A stretch of 25,214 bases of DNA from Synergistaceae bacterium (GTDB lineage Bacteria; Synergistota; Synergistia; Synergistales; Synergistaceae), in contig JAAZCN010000011.1 of the NCBI GenBank assembly GCA_012513245.1, forward strand, positions 1 to 25,214, read 5' to 3'. The notes beneath the pieces are model-generated. The model did not search any database, was not told the origin of the DNA, and saw only the letters and a list, made by a program, of their open reading frames with translations. Below are positions 4,571 to 25,002 of this stretch, piece by piece. Both the position numbers and the translations under genes were made by a program. The first letter of the stretch is position 1. The number at the start of each line of letters is the position of its first letter.

Positions 4571-4576
4571 TGGAGG
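4571..4576 (+). promoter_or_regulatory. Ribosome binding site deciding the murE1 start
   Basis: TGGAGG lies eight bases before ATG 4585. An in-frame ATG at 4570 overlaps this site and has no good site of its own, so translation most likely begins at 4585. Confidence 0.75.
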
Positions 4577-4584
4577 TATTTTTT

Positions 4585-6093
4585 ATGAAGTTAAGCAGCC
4601 TTGTCTCTTTATTAGAAAAAACCCCTCTTAATATCAGGATCTACAGCGCATCGTGCCCGGGAAACCTAATAGAGGCTGAAGTTGATAATTTGGTTTCGGA
4701 CAGCAGAAAAGTCACTAAGGGATCAATATTTGCATGTGTAGAGGGTGAACATTCCGATGGCCACGCCTTTGCTCAGGCGGCTCTTTCATTAGGAGCAGCA
4801 GCTCTTCTTTGTGAACGTCCACTAAATAATATAGATATTCCACAGCTGATCTGTACTGATGTCAGAAGAAACATGGGCAGGGTCGCCTCTTTATTGTACG
4901 ATGAGCCTGTTTCCAGGCTTAAGATGTTGGTTATAACCGGCACCAACGGCAAAACCACCTCAACGTTCATGTTAAAGTCTATTCTGGAAAACACCGGGAT
5001 AAAAACAGGTCTGATTGGGACAGTCCGGTGCGATGACGGTTTTCTAAAAGAAGATGCCGAGCATACGACACCGGAAGGCTCTGACTTGCAGGCCTGGCTC
5101 CATAGAATGGTCTCCAACGGGTGCAGCGCCTGCGTTATGGAGGCTTCCTCACACGCCATCAGCCAGGGGAGGATAGACGGAGTCCTTTATGACCGGGCAG
5201 GCTTTACCAACCTGACAGTAGACCATCTTAACTACCACGTGGATATGGGATCTTACTTTGAAGTTAAAAAGAACCTTTTTAAAAACTATATGCGTGATGG
5301 CTGGCGTGCTGCCGTGAACATTGACGATCCATACGGAGCACGTCTTTATGATGAAATCGGAGAACGCTGCGTTGGATACAGCCTTGTTGACAGAAGGGCT
5401 GATTTCTATGCCAGTGTAAAAAAAGCTTCTGTTGAAGGTATGGAAATAGAGATAAAGACGCCTGATCCCAATGCTCCAACTTATGTAAAGCTTCCGCTTA
5501 TTGGCGCTCACAATGTTATGAACGCCCTTCAGGCTCTCTCTCTTTCCTGGACGCTTGGCATAGGATGTGAAGCTGCAATGGAAGGGCTTGTCAAAATGAA
5601 ACAGGTGCCGGGCCGGCTTGAAAGATACCTTATTCAAGCGAGCGGAACATGTGTAATAGACTTTGCACATAACCCTGACGGACTTGAAAAAATACTTACT
5701 GCGCTAAGATCCATATGTGAAGGGAAATTGACGGTCGTCTTCGGTGCAAGCGGAGAGAGTGATATAAGCAAACGTCCTCTGATGGGTGAAATTGCATCCC
5801 GGCTTGCTGATAAAGTGATCATAAGTTCTGACAATCCCAAAAGTGAAGATCCTGCAGCTATTGCGGCAGAGATATTTCTGGGAGCAAAAAAACATGATAC
5901 TGACTGCAATGTTATTATTGACAGAAATGAAGCAGTCAGTTTTGGGCTTGATAACCTGCAGAGCGGAGATATTCTGCTGTTGGCGGGCAAAGGTCCCGAA
6001 TCCTACCAGATACTTAAAGACGGACCTGTTGCATATTCTGATAAAGAAGCTATGGCAGCCTGGTGCAGTAAAAATAGCAGAAAATATATCTGA
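4585..6093 (+). CDS. murE: UDP-N-acetylmuramoyl-tripeptide synthetase MurE, first of two copies, with altered amino-acid pocket
   Basis: This is a cytoplasmic Mur ligase of the MurE family (502 residues), which adds the third residue to UDP-MurNAc-L-Ala-D-Glu. It shows the N-terminal UDP-binding block SDSRKVTKGSIFACVEG (from 38), the P-loop GTNGKTTS (119-126), HTTPEGSDLQ (160-169), SSHA (188-191), the lysine expected to be carbamylated (Lys228 in YFEVKK), and DFAHNPDGLEK. In known meso-DAP-adding MurE, two arginines hold the amino acid: the R of GGDRD and the R of DNPR. Here these read SGESD (Ser392) and DNPK (Lys419), so both are replaced. The late motif GKGHE reads GKGPE. It is followed by a close paralogue. 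It may add a different residue, act as a partner, or be drifting. Family call firm; substrate unknown. Confidence 0.92.
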   Translation: MKLSSLVSLLEKTPLNIRIYSASCPGNLIEAEVDNLVSDSRKVTKGSIFACVEGEHSDGHAFAQAALSLGAAALLCERPLNNIDIPQLICTDVRRNMGRVASLLYDEPVSRLKMLVITGTNGKTTSTFMLKSILENTGIKTGLIGTVRCDDGFLKEDAEHTTPEGSDLQAWLHRMVSNGCSACVMEASSHAISQGRIDGVLYDRAGFTNLTVDHLNYHVDMGSYFEVKKNLFKNYMRDGWRAAVNIDDPYGARLYDEIGERCVGYSLVDRRADFYASVKKASVEGMEIEIKTPDPNAPTYVKLPLIGAHNVMNALQALSLSWTLGIGCEAAMEGLVKMKQVPGRLERYLIQASGTCVIDFAHNPDGLEKILTALRSICEGKLTVVFGASGESDISKRPLMGEIASRLADKVIISSDNPKSEDPAAIAAEIFLGAKKHDTDCNVIIDRNEAVSFGLDNLQSGDILLLAGKGPESYQILKDGPVAYSDKEAMAAWCSKNSRKYI

Positions 6094-6165
6094 TGATTTT
6101 CGCATTTCCAATATATTACAACAAATACTGATATCGAAAACTAACCTGTAAACGGGGTGTTTTTT

Positions 6166-7671
6166 ATGAAAATAAGAGAATTGCTGGCAAAGCTCGAAAA
6201 AAGCGACCTAAATTATAAAATATGGCTGCCGGATGACCGGAGCCCTGAAAATGACTTCGAAATTTCACAATTGGTTTCAGACAGCAGAAAGGTTATTCCG
6301 GGCTCGATATTCGCCTGTGTTAAGGGAGATCATACCGACGGCCATGGCTATGCCGAGAAAGCTTTTGCATCGGGCGCCTCTGCCCTGCTATGTGAGCGAA
6401 AGCTTGACTTTCAGATCCCACAGATAATTTCAGAGGATATCAGGCGTAATATGGGGACCGTTGCATCGATCCTCTATAACGAACCTGCGAAAAAACTGAC
6501 GATGATAGCGCTGACAGGTACTAACGGAAAGACTACATCGACTTTTATGACAAAATCGATCCTAGATCACTCAGGTATCAAAACCGGAATGTTAGGAACT
6601 ATATACTACGACGACGGAAATTCATCCGTAGATGCCGAACACACTACACCGGAAGGTTCAGACCTGCAGCACTGGCTCAGCAGGATGGTCACAAACGGCT
6701 GTGAGGCATGTATTATGGAGACATCGTCCCATGCGTTGGTACAGGGACGGATCGAAGGAGTTCATTTTGACAGAGCAGGTTTTACGAATCTTACAGTAGA
6801 CCACCTGGATTTCCATAAAGACATGGAGTCGTACTTCACAGCAAAAAAGATACTCTTTGAAAAATATATGAGAAACAACTGGATGGCTGCTGTAAACAGA
6901 GATGACGCATATGGCCGGCGCCTTATAAGCGAACTTGGAAACAGGGCAATTAGTTACGGCACAATTGACAGGGATTCAAAGTTCTTTGCTGAGATAAAAG
7001 GAACTTCGATCGAAGGCGTGGATGTGGAAATAAGCACACCTGATTCAAAGATAGCTGTCACTTCAAGGCTGCCTCTGCTTGGTGAGTATAATATTATGAA
7101 TGCTCTGCAGGCTCTTTCGATTTGCTGGTCATTGGGAGTCCGAGACAAAACCGCAATGGAGGGGCTGCTGTTGATGAAGCAGGTCCCGGGAAGGCTTGAA
7201 CGCTATATAATATCCGGTTCCGGAACATGTGTCATAGACTTTGCCCACAGCCCTGACAGCCTTGAAAAAGTGCTTAAGACTCTCAGGAGCGTCTGTAAAG
7301 GCAAGTTATTTGTAGTTTTTGGCGCCGGGGGAGACAGAGATAAGACGAAACGTCCCAGCATGGGGGAGATAGCAGCGAAGCTTGCTGATTCTGTCATCAT
7401 AACCTCTGACAATCCAAGAAGCGAAGATCCCGAAGTAATTGTTTCCGAAATAGAAGAGGGAGCTAAAAAGCACTCTCCGGAATATACCCGTATAGTGGAC
7501 AGAAGATCGGCGATTTTTGAAGGGCTGAGCAGGACAGGATCAGATGACATACTTCTGATAGCAGGAAAGGGGCCTGAACCTTACCAGATACTTAAAGAGG
7601 GGCCGATACCATTCCTGGACAAAAACATGATGTTTGAATGGTGCATAGAAAACGGCAAGGAGGTGATCTGA
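6166..7671 (+). CDS. murE: UDP-MurNAc-tripeptide synthetase MurE, second copy, with canonical DAP-type motifs
   Basis: This 501-residue Mur ligase is well over half identical by eye to the gene just upstream, over its whole length, so the two arose by tandem duplication. It has the P-loop GTNGKTTS (118-125), HTTPEGSDLQ, SSHA, the carbamylated-lysine site (Lys227 in YFTAKK) and DFAHSPDSLEK. Unlike its neighbour it keeps GGDRD (Arg391) and DNPR (Arg418), the arginines that bind meso-diaminopimelate in the known enzyme, so it is the likelier true DAP ligase. The GKGHE motif reads GKGPE, as in the first copy. ATG 6166 is preferred over GTG 6157 because GGGGTG at 6154-6159 is then a usable ribosome site and the N-terminus aligns with copy one. 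A gap of 72 bases precedes it; its stop overlaps the murF start by one base. Confidence 0.95.
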   Translation: MKIRELLAKLEKSDLNYKIWLPDDRSPENDFEISQLVSDSRKVIPGSIFACVKGDHTDGHGYAEKAFASGASALLCERKLDFQIPQIISEDIRRNMGTVASILYNEPAKKLTMIALTGTNGKTTSTFMTKSILDHSGIKTGMLGTIYYDDGNSSVDAEHTTPEGSDLQHWLSRMVTNGCEACIMETSSHALVQGRIEGVHFDRAGFTNLTVDHLDFHKDMESYFTAKKILFEKYMRNNWMAAVNRDDAYGRRLISELGNRAISYGTIDRDSKFFAEIKGTSIEGVDVEISTPDSKIAVTSRLPLLGEYNIMNALQALSICWSLGVRDKTAMEGLLLMKQVPGRLERYIISGSGTCVIDFAHSPDSLEKVLKTLRSVCKGKLFVVFGAGGDRDKTKRPSMGEIAAKLADSVIITSDNPRSEDPEVIVSEIEEGAKKHSPEYTRIVDRRSAIFEGLSRTGSDDILLIAGKGPEPYQILKEGPIPFLDKNMMFEWCIENGKEVI

Positions 7672-9077
7672 TGTCACAGTTCAGAGTTTCCGATGCGGCT
7701 TTATGGTCAGGCGGAGAATATTACGGGCCTGATATCCGGCTGGGCCGTTCATGGAAGAACGACAGCAGGGATATAGGCCCCGGAGATGCATTTGTAGCCC
7801 TAAAGGGAGAAAAGACCGACGGACATTACTTTGTACAAAAAGCAATAGAAAGAGGAGCAAAACTTCTGCTTGTAAATTCTGACAGGCTGGAAGAGCTTTC
7901 GCTGTTGGATGCTGAATATTCCGGAATTGCAGTCATTGCTGTTAAAGATACTGAAAAAGCATTGGCAGAGATCGCTAAACAATATTTAAAGCTTCAGGCC
8001 CCCAAAGTAATAGGAATAACAGGAAGCGTAGGCAAAACAACTACAAGAGAGTTGACGGCAAGCCTTCTTCAGACAGAAAAAAAAATCCACAGTGCCTTAA
8101 GAAGCTTTAACACAGTTATAGGATGCAGCCTTACCATTCTTGCCATGCCGGGTGACACAGAAATATTGATCCTGGAGTTTGGAACGAACCATTTTGGTGA
8201 GATTAAAGAAATGGTCTCTCTCTTTCCTCCGCATCTTGCAGTTGTCACAGAGGTAGCTCCCGCACATCTGGAAGGTTTTAAAGATCTTGAGGGTGTACTG
8301 CGTGCTAAAATAGAGATCTTCGAATCAGAAAAACTTGAATTAATAATCTATAACTCAGACAATAAGCTCCTGAAAAAGGAATTGTCCTATAAATATAATA
8401 ACATTAAAAAAATTGGAGTCGGAAGAGAAGAAAAGTCCGGATTGAAAATCCTGGATTCTGTTGTTTTATTGACAGAAGAAGGAGCTCAACTGATCTCAAC
8501 CTATAATTATGAAGGAACACGCTTTGAATTAAAGACCGGTCTTTTTGGTTCGCAGCATTCTTATAATGTCGGCTATGCTTTTCTTGCAGCTCACGAATTT
8601 GGGATCGAAATTTCAGAAGCAGAAGAAAAATTATCTAAATTCTTGCCAATTTCAGGCAGAGGTATATGTAAAAAACTGCCCCAAAATCAATGGGTGATAG
8701 ATGAAGCATACAACGCCAATCCTAGCTCGATGAGGGCGGCGATAGAAAACACTCTTAATGTAGCAGAAAATTCAGGGCTTAGAGCATATGCTGTGCTTGG
8801 TGGAATGAGAGAGCTTGGGGATTCTTCGACTTACTGGCATCAGGATATCCTTAAGACACTCTCTTCGTTTATGAAAACCATCCTTTTAGGCGAGGAATGG
8901 TTTGATCCGACCATCGATTTGCCGGCAAATGCTGAAAGGTACAGAACTTTTGAAGAGATAACGGGCCTTGTTGGCACTGTTTCGCTCCCGGATTCCGTGG
9001 TTTTGATAAAGGGGTCAAACTCCTACGGCCTTAAAAGGCTTGTGGCACTTTTAACGGAGGGTCAATATGTATACTGA
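7671..9077 (+). CDS. murF: UDP-MurNAc-tripeptide:D-Ala-D-Ala ligase MurF
   Basis: MurF adds D-alanyl-D-alanine to UDP-MurNAc-tripeptide, finishing the cytoplasmic precursor. The 468-residue protein has the N-terminal block NDSRDIGPGDAFVALKGEKTDGH (from residue 30; given in full only as part of the family pattern), the P-loop GITGSVGKTTT (115-125), LEFGTNHFGEI, and the C-terminal domain with DEAYNANPSSMRAAIE, a MurF hallmark. I chose ATG 7671, which shares a base with the murE stop (TGATG) and follows AAGGAGG; the longer frame from GTG 7638 would lie wholly inside murE. The gene for the D-Ala-D-Ala ligase (ddl) is not in the window. It overlaps mraY by 11 bases. Confidence 0.96.
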   Translation: MSQFRVSDAALWSGGEYYGPDIRLGRSWKNDSRDIGPGDAFVALKGEKTDGHYFVQKAIERGAKLLLVNSDRLEELSLLDAEYSGIAVIAVKDTEKALAEIAKQYLKLQAPKVIGITGSVGKTTTRELTASLLQTEKKIHSALRSFNTVIGCSLTILAMPGDTEILILEFGTNHFGEIKEMVSLFPPHLAVVTEVAPAHLEGFKDLEGVLRAKIEIFESEKLELIIYNSDNKLLKKELSYKYNNIKKIGVGREEKSGLKILDSVVLLTEEGAQLISTYNYEGTRFELKTGLFGSQHSYNVGYAFLAAHEFGIEISEAEEKLSKFLPISGRGICKKLPQNQWVIDEAYNANPSSMRAAIENTLNVAENSGLRAYAVLGGMRELGDSSTYWHQDILKTLSSFMKTILLGEEWFDPTIDLPANAERYRTFEEITGLVGTVSLPDSVVLIKGSNSYGLKRLVALLTEGQYVY

Positions 9078-21815: not shown

Positions 21816-21856
21816 CTTTTGTTAAAAATATAAAGATATGAAAGGTCGCTGTTTTG

Positions 21857-23092
21857 ATGTCTGGTTTCGTTAAAGAGGTCACGCCTCGCATGCAGGCTCT
21901 ACAGCATGTCACCGAAAAGCTTTCCTTTCCGTGGCATGTGCGAACTGTCGATATGCCGATCGATTCTGCCCTTGGGAAAAGGATCTCCGGGGATGTTGAG
22001 ACCGAAGAAAAATACCCGCCGTTTACAAGAAGTCTAAGAGACGGTTTTGCAGTACACAGCCCCGATGTCGTAGCTGCGACTCCCGGAACTCCCACATTTT
22101 TAGATAAGACCGGAGATATACCTATGGGTATCCTGCCCGAAATTTCGATAAGACCGGGAGAGGCGGCAGGCATCCCTACGGGAGGCGTGCTGCCCGATGG
22201 GTCGGATGCCGTTGTTATGCTTGAAAACACCTCTTTTACAGGGGGATGGGTGGAGGTAAGAAGCGCTGTACAGTCCGGAGAAAATGTGATATTTGCAGGA
22301 GAAGAGTTTCCCGCAGGACAAAAAATCCTCTCAAGGGGTGACATGGTAGATTTCAGAACTATGAGTATCCTTGCTACTCTTGGCATAAAAACTGTGCCTG
22401 CTATCGATCTGAAAATAAGTATCCTGAGTACAGGCGATGAGATAGTTCCCGTTGAGACATACCCTCTCCCGCCCGGAAAGATAAGAGATGTGAACGGATG
22501 GTCTGTCAGATCGCTTCTGGCTCGATATGGTTTTGATTCAGAATACAGAGGAATACTTTCCGATGAGGGCGATCCTTTTGAGAGGACTGTAAAAGAAGAG
22601 GCCGCACGATGTGATGTTTTGATATTGAGCGGCGGCTCATCTGTAGGCATAAGGGATCACTGCTCGAGGGTTTTGGAAAAACTGCCTGATCCGGGTCTGA
22701 TGGTTCGCGGTATCAACATAGCTCCCGGAAAACCAACACTTATTGCCGGCAGCCTGGAAGAAAAGAAGCTTGTCGTAAGCCTTCCGGGGCATCCTCTATC
22801 ATGTTTTACAGTAGTTTACGTTCTGCTTATCCCTTTACTATTGAGCCTCATAGGGACAAATGATACAAAATATAAAATAAAAATGCAGCTGCCAATGTCC
22901 AGGGACATAACTGCAAGGACAGGTCCTGAAGAATTTGTGCCATGCAGGATAACAGATGACGGGAGAATAGATCCTATCCTTGCCAAGTCAGGATATGTAT
23001 CTTCACTTGCATCAGCAGACGGATTTATACGAATACCGGAGGACCGTGAGACTATAAGGGCCGGAGAGACGGCGGAGGTATGGTTATGGTAG
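21857..23092 (+). CDS. moeA: Molybdopterin molybdenumtransferase MoeA
   Basis: MoeA inserts molybdate (or tungstate) into adenylylated molybdopterin to finish the cofactor. The 411-residue protein shows the four-domain MoeA pattern: PPFTRSLRDGFAVHSPD (from about 54, in place of the usual SAMDGYA), PTGGVLPDGSDAVVMLE, the MoaB/Mog-like domain with ISILSTGDEIVP and LSGGSSVGIRDH, and LPGHPLSCF. The SRDGFA variant keeps the conserved Asp. ATG 21857 is preferred over the adjoining TTG 21854. A second moeA follows directly, with which it overlaps by seven bases, so the two are surely co-translated. Confidence 0.9.
   Translation: MSGFVKEVTPRMQALQHVTEKLSFPWHVRTVDMPIDSALGKRISGDVETEEKYPPFTRSLRDGFAVHSPDVVAATPGTPTFLDKTGDIPMGILPEISIRPGEAAGIPTGGVLPDGSDAVVMLENTSFTGGWVEVRSAVQSGENVIFAGEEFPAGQKILSRGDMVDFRTMSILATLGIKTVPAIDLKISILSTGDEIVPVETYPLPPGKIRDVNGWSVRSLLARYGFDSEYRGILSDEGDPFERTVKEEAARCDVLILSGGSSVGIRDHCSRVLEKLPDPGLMVRGINIAPGKPTLIAGSLEEKKLVVSLPGHPLSCFTVVYVLLIPLLLSLIGTNDTKYKIKMQLPMSRDITARTGPEEFVPCRITDDGRIDPILAKSGYVSSLASADGFIRIPEDRETIRAGETAEVWLW
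23074..23078 (+). promoter_or_regulatory. Ribosome binding site deciding the start of the second moeA
   Basis: GGAGG is one base before ATG 23080, too close to serve it, but seven bases before ATG 23086. Translation therefore most likely begins at 23086. Confidence 0.7.
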
Positions 23093-25002
23093 CTAAATAC
23101 AGCGAACACATAGAATTACGTACAGCTCTGGATATGCTGAAAAAAGCATTTGCAGGAGATGCTGTAAAAAATACGAATGAAAAAAGCATTTCAGAAGCGC
23201 TTGGTTGCGTGCTGACAAAAGATATAATCGCACACAGGAACGTTCCGCATTATGCAGCCTCGGCTGTAGACGGATACGCAGTGGACGCCTCGTCAACGAT
23301 CGGTGCGTCTCAGGCAACTCCGGTATTGCTGAAACCTTCACAATACCAGTGGATGAACACAGGGGCCGCCGTTCCTCACTGGGCAAACGCTGTCCTCATG
23401 ATAGAAGATTCTTCGGCGGAGGGCGAGGATATTTTAGTCTTTAAAAGCCTGACTTCCTCTGCCAATGTGAGGCCACTTGGTGAAGATGTGATGGCTGGTC
23501 AGATCATAGCAAGAGAGGGCGATATTGTTTCGCCGGCTCTGATCTCGCTCTTTTTATGCGCAGGCATAGACAAAGTAACGGTTTACAAAAAACCCAGAAC
23601 TCTTTATATCCCTACCGGCGATGAGATCATCGCAAGGGGAAAATGGCTTTTAGACCCAAATCCTAAGTCCGGAACGGTCGCAGAGAGCAATTCCCTCTTT
23701 ATAGAGGCTTCTTTCAGGGAATGGGGATTTGACGTGGATGTCTCTCCTGTTGTCCCTGACGATCCAGCACTTCTAAAGGAAAAAGTAACAGAGGGAGTTA
23801 AAAAATACGATGTGGTGCTCGTAGGTGCCGGTTCCGCAAAGGGCCGAAGGGACCATACGCTGGAAGTCTTTGATGATCTTGGAAAGGTGATCTTCAGGTG
23901 GATACGCATGAAACCGGGCAGACCGGCAATGGCTGCCGAAATAATGGGCAAGCCTGTGATCTGTCTTCCCGGGTTTCCCATGTCTACCACAGTGGTCCTC
24001 TGGAGCCTTGTATATCCATTGCTCAACCTTCTTTCAGCGCGGGAAGAAGATACTGATCATCTGATAAAGGAAGCTCTCGGATGCAGGGAGACGTGGAAGA
24101 CTAAACTGCTCGTACAGCATTCTTCACCGGCAGGCATAGAGGAATGGCTGAGGGTAAAGACGGCTAAAGTCGGAGATAACATATATTCCTGGGCTTTGAC
24201 TTCGGGAGCGAGCGTCCTTTGGGCACTGGCCGAAGCAGACGGTATAGCTCTCCTTCCTGCGTCAGCCCTTGAATGTGAAAAAGGAACTGATGTTACTGTC
24301 TGGATGAAAAGAAGAGTGGAACTCGACAAACGTATACTTTTCCAGGGGTCTGACGATCCGGCGATACAGCTTTTGGTAACTCCGATCAGACGCAGGGGCG
24401 GAGACTTTGTCTCACGAGCGGTAGGCAGTATGGGCGGACTTGCCGCATTGAGCAGAGGCGAGTGTCACATGGCCGCGGCCCATCTCCTTGACGACAAGGA
24501 CGGAACATACAACGACAGTTTCATAGAACGTTTCTCTAATGGGGCAAAATGGGAACGTATACTAGTATTCTACAGGACACAGGGAATAATAGTGCAGCAG
24601 GGAAATCCTAAAAGAATAAACACTTTTGAAGAACTGTGCGCCGGTGACAATGTCTTTTCAAACAGACAACCGGGCGCAGGCACAAGGGTCCTGTTTGATC
24701 ATCTCCTTAAAAAGACAGGTAGAACACCTTCTGAAATAAAGGGTTATGAACAGCAGTGTACGACTCATATGGAAGCAGCGAACCGGGTCTTTACAGGCCT
24801 TGCAGAAGCCACACTGGGGATAAAATCAGCGGCGGATGCACTGGGGCTTGACTTTATCCCCCTTGCAGAAGAACCTTATGAACTTGTCATTCCTTCTATA
24901 TACATGGAGCACCCGACGATCCAGGCCCTTTTGGACAGTCTCGGTGACAAGAAATGGAAAGAGACAGTAGAAGCTATGGGAGGCTACAGATGGCCGAATT
25001 GA
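23086..25002 (+). CDS. MoeA fused to a periplasmic-binding-protein-like (substrate-binding) domain
   Basis: A 638-residue two-part protein. Residues 1 to about 410 are a Moe[19 protein letters not shown] (about 51-68), [18 protein letters not shown], a Mog-like domain with [25 protein letters not shown] and [10 protein letters not shown]. From about 420 on there is a domain of the type often annotated as a PBP-like (substrate-binding) domain in MoeA fusions: [20 protein letters not shown], then [30 protein letters not shown] and [15 protein letters not shown]. Such fusions are known in several anaerobes and probably sense or present oxyanions. The MoeA consensus SGGSS is altered to GAGSA, a common trait of this class. 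It overlaps the upstream moeA by seven bases and moaA by 13. Confidence 0.88.

Follow-up and report, generated by a model that had tools for sequence, protein, structure and literature searches.

Each species is usually assigned a peptidoglycan type with a single diamino acid, determined by its one MurE ligase. The 25,214-nucleotide stretch analysed here (hereafter, the window; assembly GCA_012513245.1, contig JAAZCN010000011.1) contains the dcw (division and cell wall) cluster of a Synergistaceae bacterium, with two full-length tandem murE genes inside it, and raises the question of what a second MurE might add in the same cell. We consider it an evenly balanced proposition that copy 1 is a MurE paralogue adding a different third residue, with lysine (L and/or D) as the likeliest, beside a copy 2 that adds diaminopimelate (DAP); the activity and substrate of copy 1, and the mixed wall that they would produce, are what we infer from sequence comparisons.

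Two tandem MurE copies with different amino acid pockets

Both genes are on the same strand, separated by 72 bp, and show the features below, where equivalent residues are numbered as in Escherichia coli MurE (L056), counting Met1.

4572..4577, + strand: GGAGGT, likely ribosome-binding site of copy 1 (direct sequence reading)
4585..6093, + strand: murE copy 1, variant ligase, 502 amino acids (open reading frame, ORF; TIGR01085 match)
4939..4959, + strand: ATP loop GTNGKTT of copy 1, residues 119-125 (alignment)
5266..5268, + strand: K228 of copy 1, equivalent to E. coli K225 (alignment)
5671..5673, + strand: N363 of copy 1, in DFAHNPD; ordinary copies have S, T or A there (column comparison)
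5758..5760, + strand: S392 of copy 1, in SGESD, in place of E. coli R390 (alignment)
5839..5841, + strand: K419 of copy 1, in DNPK, in place of E. coli R417 (alignment)
6154..6159, + strand: GGGGTG, likely ribosome-binding site of copy 2, within the 72-bp gap (direct sequence reading)
6166..7671, + strand: murE copy 2, ordinary DAP-type ligase, 501 amino acids, from ATG 6166 to the stop (ORF, alignment, family models)
7336..7338, + strand: R391 of copy 2, in GGDRD (alignment)
7417..7419, + strand: R418 of copy 2, in DNPR (alignment)

The initial Met of copy 1 is the same as in its homologues P0001 and P0002, and the ORF list also permits a GTG start for copy 2, at 6157. The copies align end to end, with 301/504 identical positions (60%), and both have the GTNGKTT loop, a lysine at the carbamylated position (K228/K227) and the equivalents of E. 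coli S185, R193, D414, N415, G465 and E469; we take K225 to be the carbamylated lysine of the E. coli enzyme, and S185 and R193 to belong to its sugar site. A preliminary description of this DNA had already pointed out the end-to-end copies with a common catalytic lysine and ATP motifs, as well as the loss from copy 1 of two arginines, and our mapping on E. coli MurE, in an alignment without duplicate loci or P0036 (408 amino acids), agrees with it: copy 2 has both amino acid-contacting arginines, R391 (R390 in E. coli) and R418 (R417), which is the E. coli-type DAP signature, whereas copy 1 has S392 and K419 and lacks this signature (R390 plus DNPR).

The role of these arginines is less simple than first described. 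R389Ec (R390 here) was assigned to the carboxylate of the L-stereocentre of the substrate, and R416Ec (R417) to both carboxylates, with D413, N414, G464 and E468 assigned to the D-centre (PMC9434261, which numbers residues one lower). Because the equivalent of R390 in Staphylococcus aureus MurE, R383, contacts lysine, R390 is not a DAP-only contact, and the same source describes several pocket residues, R389 included, as less consistent among Gram-positive lysine MurE (PMC9434261). Thus, both positions are where the preliminary description placed them, although its view of the two as DAP contacts needs widening for R390.

Both copies are recognized by the MurE model TIGR01085 (442.6 and 468.6 bits for copies 1 and 2, cut-off 257.3). 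The DAP-ligase model NF001124 accepts copy 2 (481.3 bits, cut-off 476) and not copy 1 (451.2), which also remains well below the cut-off of the Gram-positive Lys-ligase model NF010628 (294.8 bits against 536). The predicted fold of copy 1 is complete, with the three domains of MurE, its gene is under purifying selection (ratio of nonsynonymous to synonymous substitution rates, dN/dS, 0.05-0.15), and 45 MurE rows without R390 show no variation, over the positions that they cover, at the residues checked in the ATP loop, at the carbamyl-lysine and in the sugar site. With its conserved catalytic residues, its predicted fold and this selection, copy 1 probably works as a ligase. That it could be a pseudogene or a decaying gene was rejected, on account of its full-length open frame, the dN/dS values and the retention of catalytic residues.

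Spread and origin of the variant in Synergistota

We searched 185 Synergistota genomes, of which 176 matched, and took MurE rows from 140, leaving out second matches of G014 and G148. Among the resulting 152 rows, the residues at 390/417 were R/R in 142, S/K in seven, S/R in two and N/R in one. The ten rows without R390 come from ten genomes, all of which also contain an R390 MurE (10/10), and the remaining 130 genomes have R390 in every MurE row examined. The pair is therefore conserved in relatives, and R390 was lost only beside an R390 copy in these 140 genomes. Nor, within the rows read, are the substitutions common in ordinary DAP MurE: K417 occurs in 69/149 rows without R390 and in 0/248 rows with it, all 248 of which have R417, when the Synergistota rows are pooled with those from a search with Thermotoga maritima MurE. 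As the pooled sequences share ancestry and sometimes include one protein twice, from a database and from a genome, a Fisher test on these counts is only descriptive.

A search with copy 1 recovered five genome loci, all from Synergistaceae metagenome-assembled genomes and with 70-83% identity. The variant is directly before the ordinary copy, in one contig, in G001, G004, G005, G131, G132 and G133, with the variant of G133 cut by the contig end; both copies are at contig ends in G002 and G003, and their order is reversed in G163.

In a whole-gene tree of 130 rows (motif columns removed, rows more than 93% identical thinned, partial rows G003_3 and G133_2 left out; no Thermotogota rows included), copy 1 belongs to a clade of 20 rows with support of 92, having S (19 rows) or G (one row) at position 390 and K (16 rows) or R (four rows) at 417. 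Since position 390 is changed in all 20 rows and position 417 in only 16, the loss of R390 is, as judged from this tree, the founding change of the clade and R417K a secondary one. The altered pocket proposed earlier is supported; its two substitutions are unequal, and R390, not DNPR, is indicated as the position lost first in this family.

Other columns changed as well. We compared 44 rows picked for S/G390 with 110 picked for R390 (also by D391); counts at 390 prove nothing, because the groups were chosen by that residue, and only other columns inform. Relative to the R390 rows, those with S/G390 have E at 389 (44/44), S at 387 (39/44), C at 146 (43/43) and N at 213 (41/43). Column 361 has N, in DFAHNPD, in 44/44 S/G390 rows and in 0/110 R390 rows, while A at 425 is found in 44/44 of the former, yet also in 21/110 of the latter.

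The best reading of these comparisons is that copy 1 arose from an old duplication inside Synergistaceae. G168 carries another variant (GGEND/DDPR; L049:6703-8214), located between murF and mraY and in a distant branch of the tree, an independent case where a similar pocket change was reached separately. Conversely, G134 contains a tandem MurE pair (L046:8432-11551) with R390 and R417 in both copies, the second reading GGERD, and G015 contains two copies in different contigs, both with R390; as all these duplicates keep R390, duplication alone does not bring the pocket change.

Six S/R rows, the group of G163 and P0025, are separate from the clade of the window in the whole-gene tree, yet share SGESD. 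Compared in windows along the gene, P0025 and P0032, its likely partner from the same longest contig, are 83-95% identical up to residue 260 and 68-83% identical beyond it, and this fall suggests gene conversion between tandem murE copies. In trees of half genes, with 53 chosen rows, all 20 S/G rows given form one clade in the best tree of the C-terminal half (support 57/90); they do not in that of the N-terminal half, where a single clade is nevertheless not rejected (p-AU 0.173). That the S390 copies arose many times over was set aside in view of the shared SGESD, the gene conversion signal and both half-gene results. We favour, with low certainty, a single origin for the S/G rows, and a separate one for G168.

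Candidate substrates of copy 1

The pocket of copy 1 resembles that of T. maritima MurE, an enzyme that adds lysine in both its L and D forms (see also PMC3829189). When aligned with copy 2, T. maritima MurE (4bub) reads GGNSD and DDPR. In our homologue searches, each listing the best 120 of around 8000 candidates scored, the 120 matches listed for T. maritima MurE have A (68), S (33), G (4) or R (15) at position 390, so that 105/120 lack R390. Named matches among them are from Thermotoga, Pseudothermotoga, Fervidobacterium, Thermosipho, Kosmotoga, Mesotoga, Marinitoga and metagenome-assembled genomes, that is, Thermotogota. The motifs of the listed matches range over GGNSD/DDPR, GGSAD/DDPK, GGDSD/DNPK (five rows) and GGESD/DNPK (one row), the last differing from the signature of copy 1 in a single residue. 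We found no common descent, as copy 1 is placed among Synergistota rows. A transfer from Thermotogota was rejected, given this placing (in a tree built without Thermotogota) and the 60% identity of copy 1 to copy 2, compared with an average of ca. 31% to those matches of T. maritima MurE that lack R390. On these sequence comparisons, the likeness is convergent, not transferred.

In the mechanism that we propose, copy 2 would add meso-DAP and copy 1 would bind the same UDP-MurNAc-dipeptide and ATP; having no R390 grip on the alpha-carboxylate and a softened grip at 417, copy 1 would take another diamino acid, with lysine the likeliest. LysA was found in 10/10 genomes with a non-R390 MurE (as a fragment below the cut-off in G002, and with one TGA within the match in G004 and G131) and DapF in 7/10, mostly drafts in which absences are weak; DAP and lysine should therefore both be available to the cell, although neither gene separates variant-bearing genomes from the others. 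A single MurF was found in each of the 27/27 relatives searched, with no second copy in these 27 genomes at E 1e-60, so that one MurF would need to accept, and would finish, both tripeptides, leading to two kinds of stem peptide. Tentatively, and with more doubt than confidence, we propose that both meso-DAP, via copy 2, and L- or D-lysine, via copy 1, occupy the third position in the peptidoglycan of these bacteria, and that duplication with loss of R390 produced the changed pocket at least two times in Synergistota, in convergence with Thermotogota.

Several observations weigh against lysine addition. T. maritima MurE uses DAP efficiently in vitro (PMC9434261), and loss of R390 is consequently no proof of lost DAP addition. 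Neither motif alone sets specificity, because S. aureus MurE keeps the R390 equivalent with lysine, and its A409R mutant (DNPA to DNPR) did not add DAP, without a switch in specificity (PMC3829189, PMC9434261). In copy 1, the change of R417 to K is conservative and not universal among its relatives, part of the family retains DNPR, and the two residues to which binding of the D-centre of DAP is ascribed, N415 and E469, are both present. The NCBI DAP-ligase model NF001126 accepts copy 1 (472.1 bits, cut-off 373). Likewise, T. maritima-type rows rarely have the other changes of copy 1 (N361 in 1/120 and C146 in 0/120 of those listed), we found no set of genes that would mark a lysine wall, and the literature collection searched yielded no cell-wall chemistry for lineages bearing the pair.

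Part of this evidence would fit a copy 1 whose specificity was relaxed and not switched, that is, a MurE still adding DAP, or broad for DAP and lysine, with shifted kinetics or a condition-specific role. Such an enzyme would be in keeping with the efficient use of DAP by a T. maritima MurE that has Ser at the same position, with the retention of N415 and E469, and of DNPR in part of the family, and with the NF001126 score; we nevertheless regard it as unlikely, because R390 is present in every MurE row of the 130 other genomes, several neighbouring positions are altered along with it and a similar change occurred independently in G168. A substrate other than DAP or lysine, such as ornithine, another DAP isomer, lanthionine, a diamine without alpha-carboxylate or a recycled peptide, appears very improbable: R390 holds an L-centre carboxylate common to DAP and lysine and its loss could fit a differently placed carboxylate, but we found no pathway gene linked to a substrate of this kind. 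The Orr-like racemases of G001, G005 and G163, which might favour it, all score below the NF040742 cut-off and occur also in G130 and G135, without the variant, and hence show no link to a D-lysine supply gene either; the Orr-like protein of L157 had no PDB relative at 1e-5. PF09043 (lysine 5,6-aminomutase) matched none of the 27 genomes, and none in the control either, and is thus uninformative.

The preliminary description also considered that copy 1 might have become a partner or regulatory subunit, making no tripeptide and serving copy 2 or a Mur complex much as plant PAP11 serves the plastid RNA polymerase. DNPK is frequent in plant MurE-like proteins, which in seed plants act as polymerase subunits (PMC9434261, PMC12681378); a second MurE from moss, in which DNPR is retained, showed no activity in preliminary tests (PMC9434261), plant polymerase chains were among our structural matches, and the murE copies are adjacent and probably co-expressed. 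However, the variant of G168 does not adjoin murE, and purifying selection and catalytic-site residues that are invariant across the 45 rows, and that a scaffold would not need, disfavour this idea, even if the argument from invariance is blunted by plant polymerase subunits also said to retain many catalytic residues (PMC12681378). We consider it improbable, and maintain lysine addition by copy 1 as our preferred reading.

As a separate observation on gene content, the alanine racemase model TIGR00492 was unmatched in 9/9 genomes with an S390 copy (G001-G005, G131-G133 and G163) and in 5/18 others, a count over 27 genomes that is limited by draft genomes and kinship. This model misses some real racemases: the controls T. 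maritima and Corynebacterium glutamicum, the latter of which we take to have an Alr, fail TIGR00492 yet match PF01168.

Locus context and known systems

In the window, the cluster reads RNase P RNA, mraZ, rsmH, ftsL-like, a penicillin-binding protein gene, murE copy 1, murE copy 2, murF, mraY, murD, ftsW, murG, murC, murB, ftsQ-like, ftsA and ftsZ. Names derive from the order and reading of the ORFs, with both murE and murF tested by family models.

393-744: RNase P RNA (RF00010), just upstream of the dcw cluster (Rfam, 285.5 bits)
7671..9077, + strand: murF, next enzyme of the pathway (ORF and family model)

Only the RNase P RNA reached its gathering score in an Rfam scan of the window; no lysine riboswitch or other RNA family did, and such control of the murE pair was rejected. 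Further along there are two neighbouring MoeA-like genes (ORF reading; 21854-23092 and 23080-25002) that overlap by 13 bp, the second being longer, with an extra C-terminal part.

If our reading is true, the conserved MurE pair, with its pocket divided between two copies, would provide a natural example of a wall that combines two stem chemistries, and its matched enzymes, 60% identical and with few pocket changes, would help to find what sets MurE specificity. Duplicates of MurE, its lysine-adding type and the pocket of T. maritima are already known; our literature search found, within the collection searched, no tandem pair of an ordinary MurE with one having a Thermotoga-like pocket. To our knowledge, T. 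maritima itself has only one MurE.

Copy 1 differs from the meso-DAP MurE of E. coli and Mycobacterium tuberculosis in lacking both R390 and R417. Its pocket is not of the S. aureus type either, because the L-Lys MurE of S. aureus (4c12) combines DNPA with a retained first arginine, R383 (PMC9434261). Streptomycetaceae also contain a second gene named murE in one genome, although this encodes a shorter DUF1727 protein of ca. 400 amino acids (PMC7601586), whereas copy 1 is a full-length tandem MurE. Plant PAP11/MurE-like proteins share the fold of copy 1 and commonly have DNPK (PMC9434261); unlike copy 1, PAP11 is a eukaryotic polymerase subunit, and longer, with our query aligning to residues 250-670 of ca. 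770. With T. maritima-type MurE, copy 1 has in common the MurE fold and the absence of Arg at position 390, and this match is at once the strongest clue to the function of copy 1 and the main reason for caution about it.
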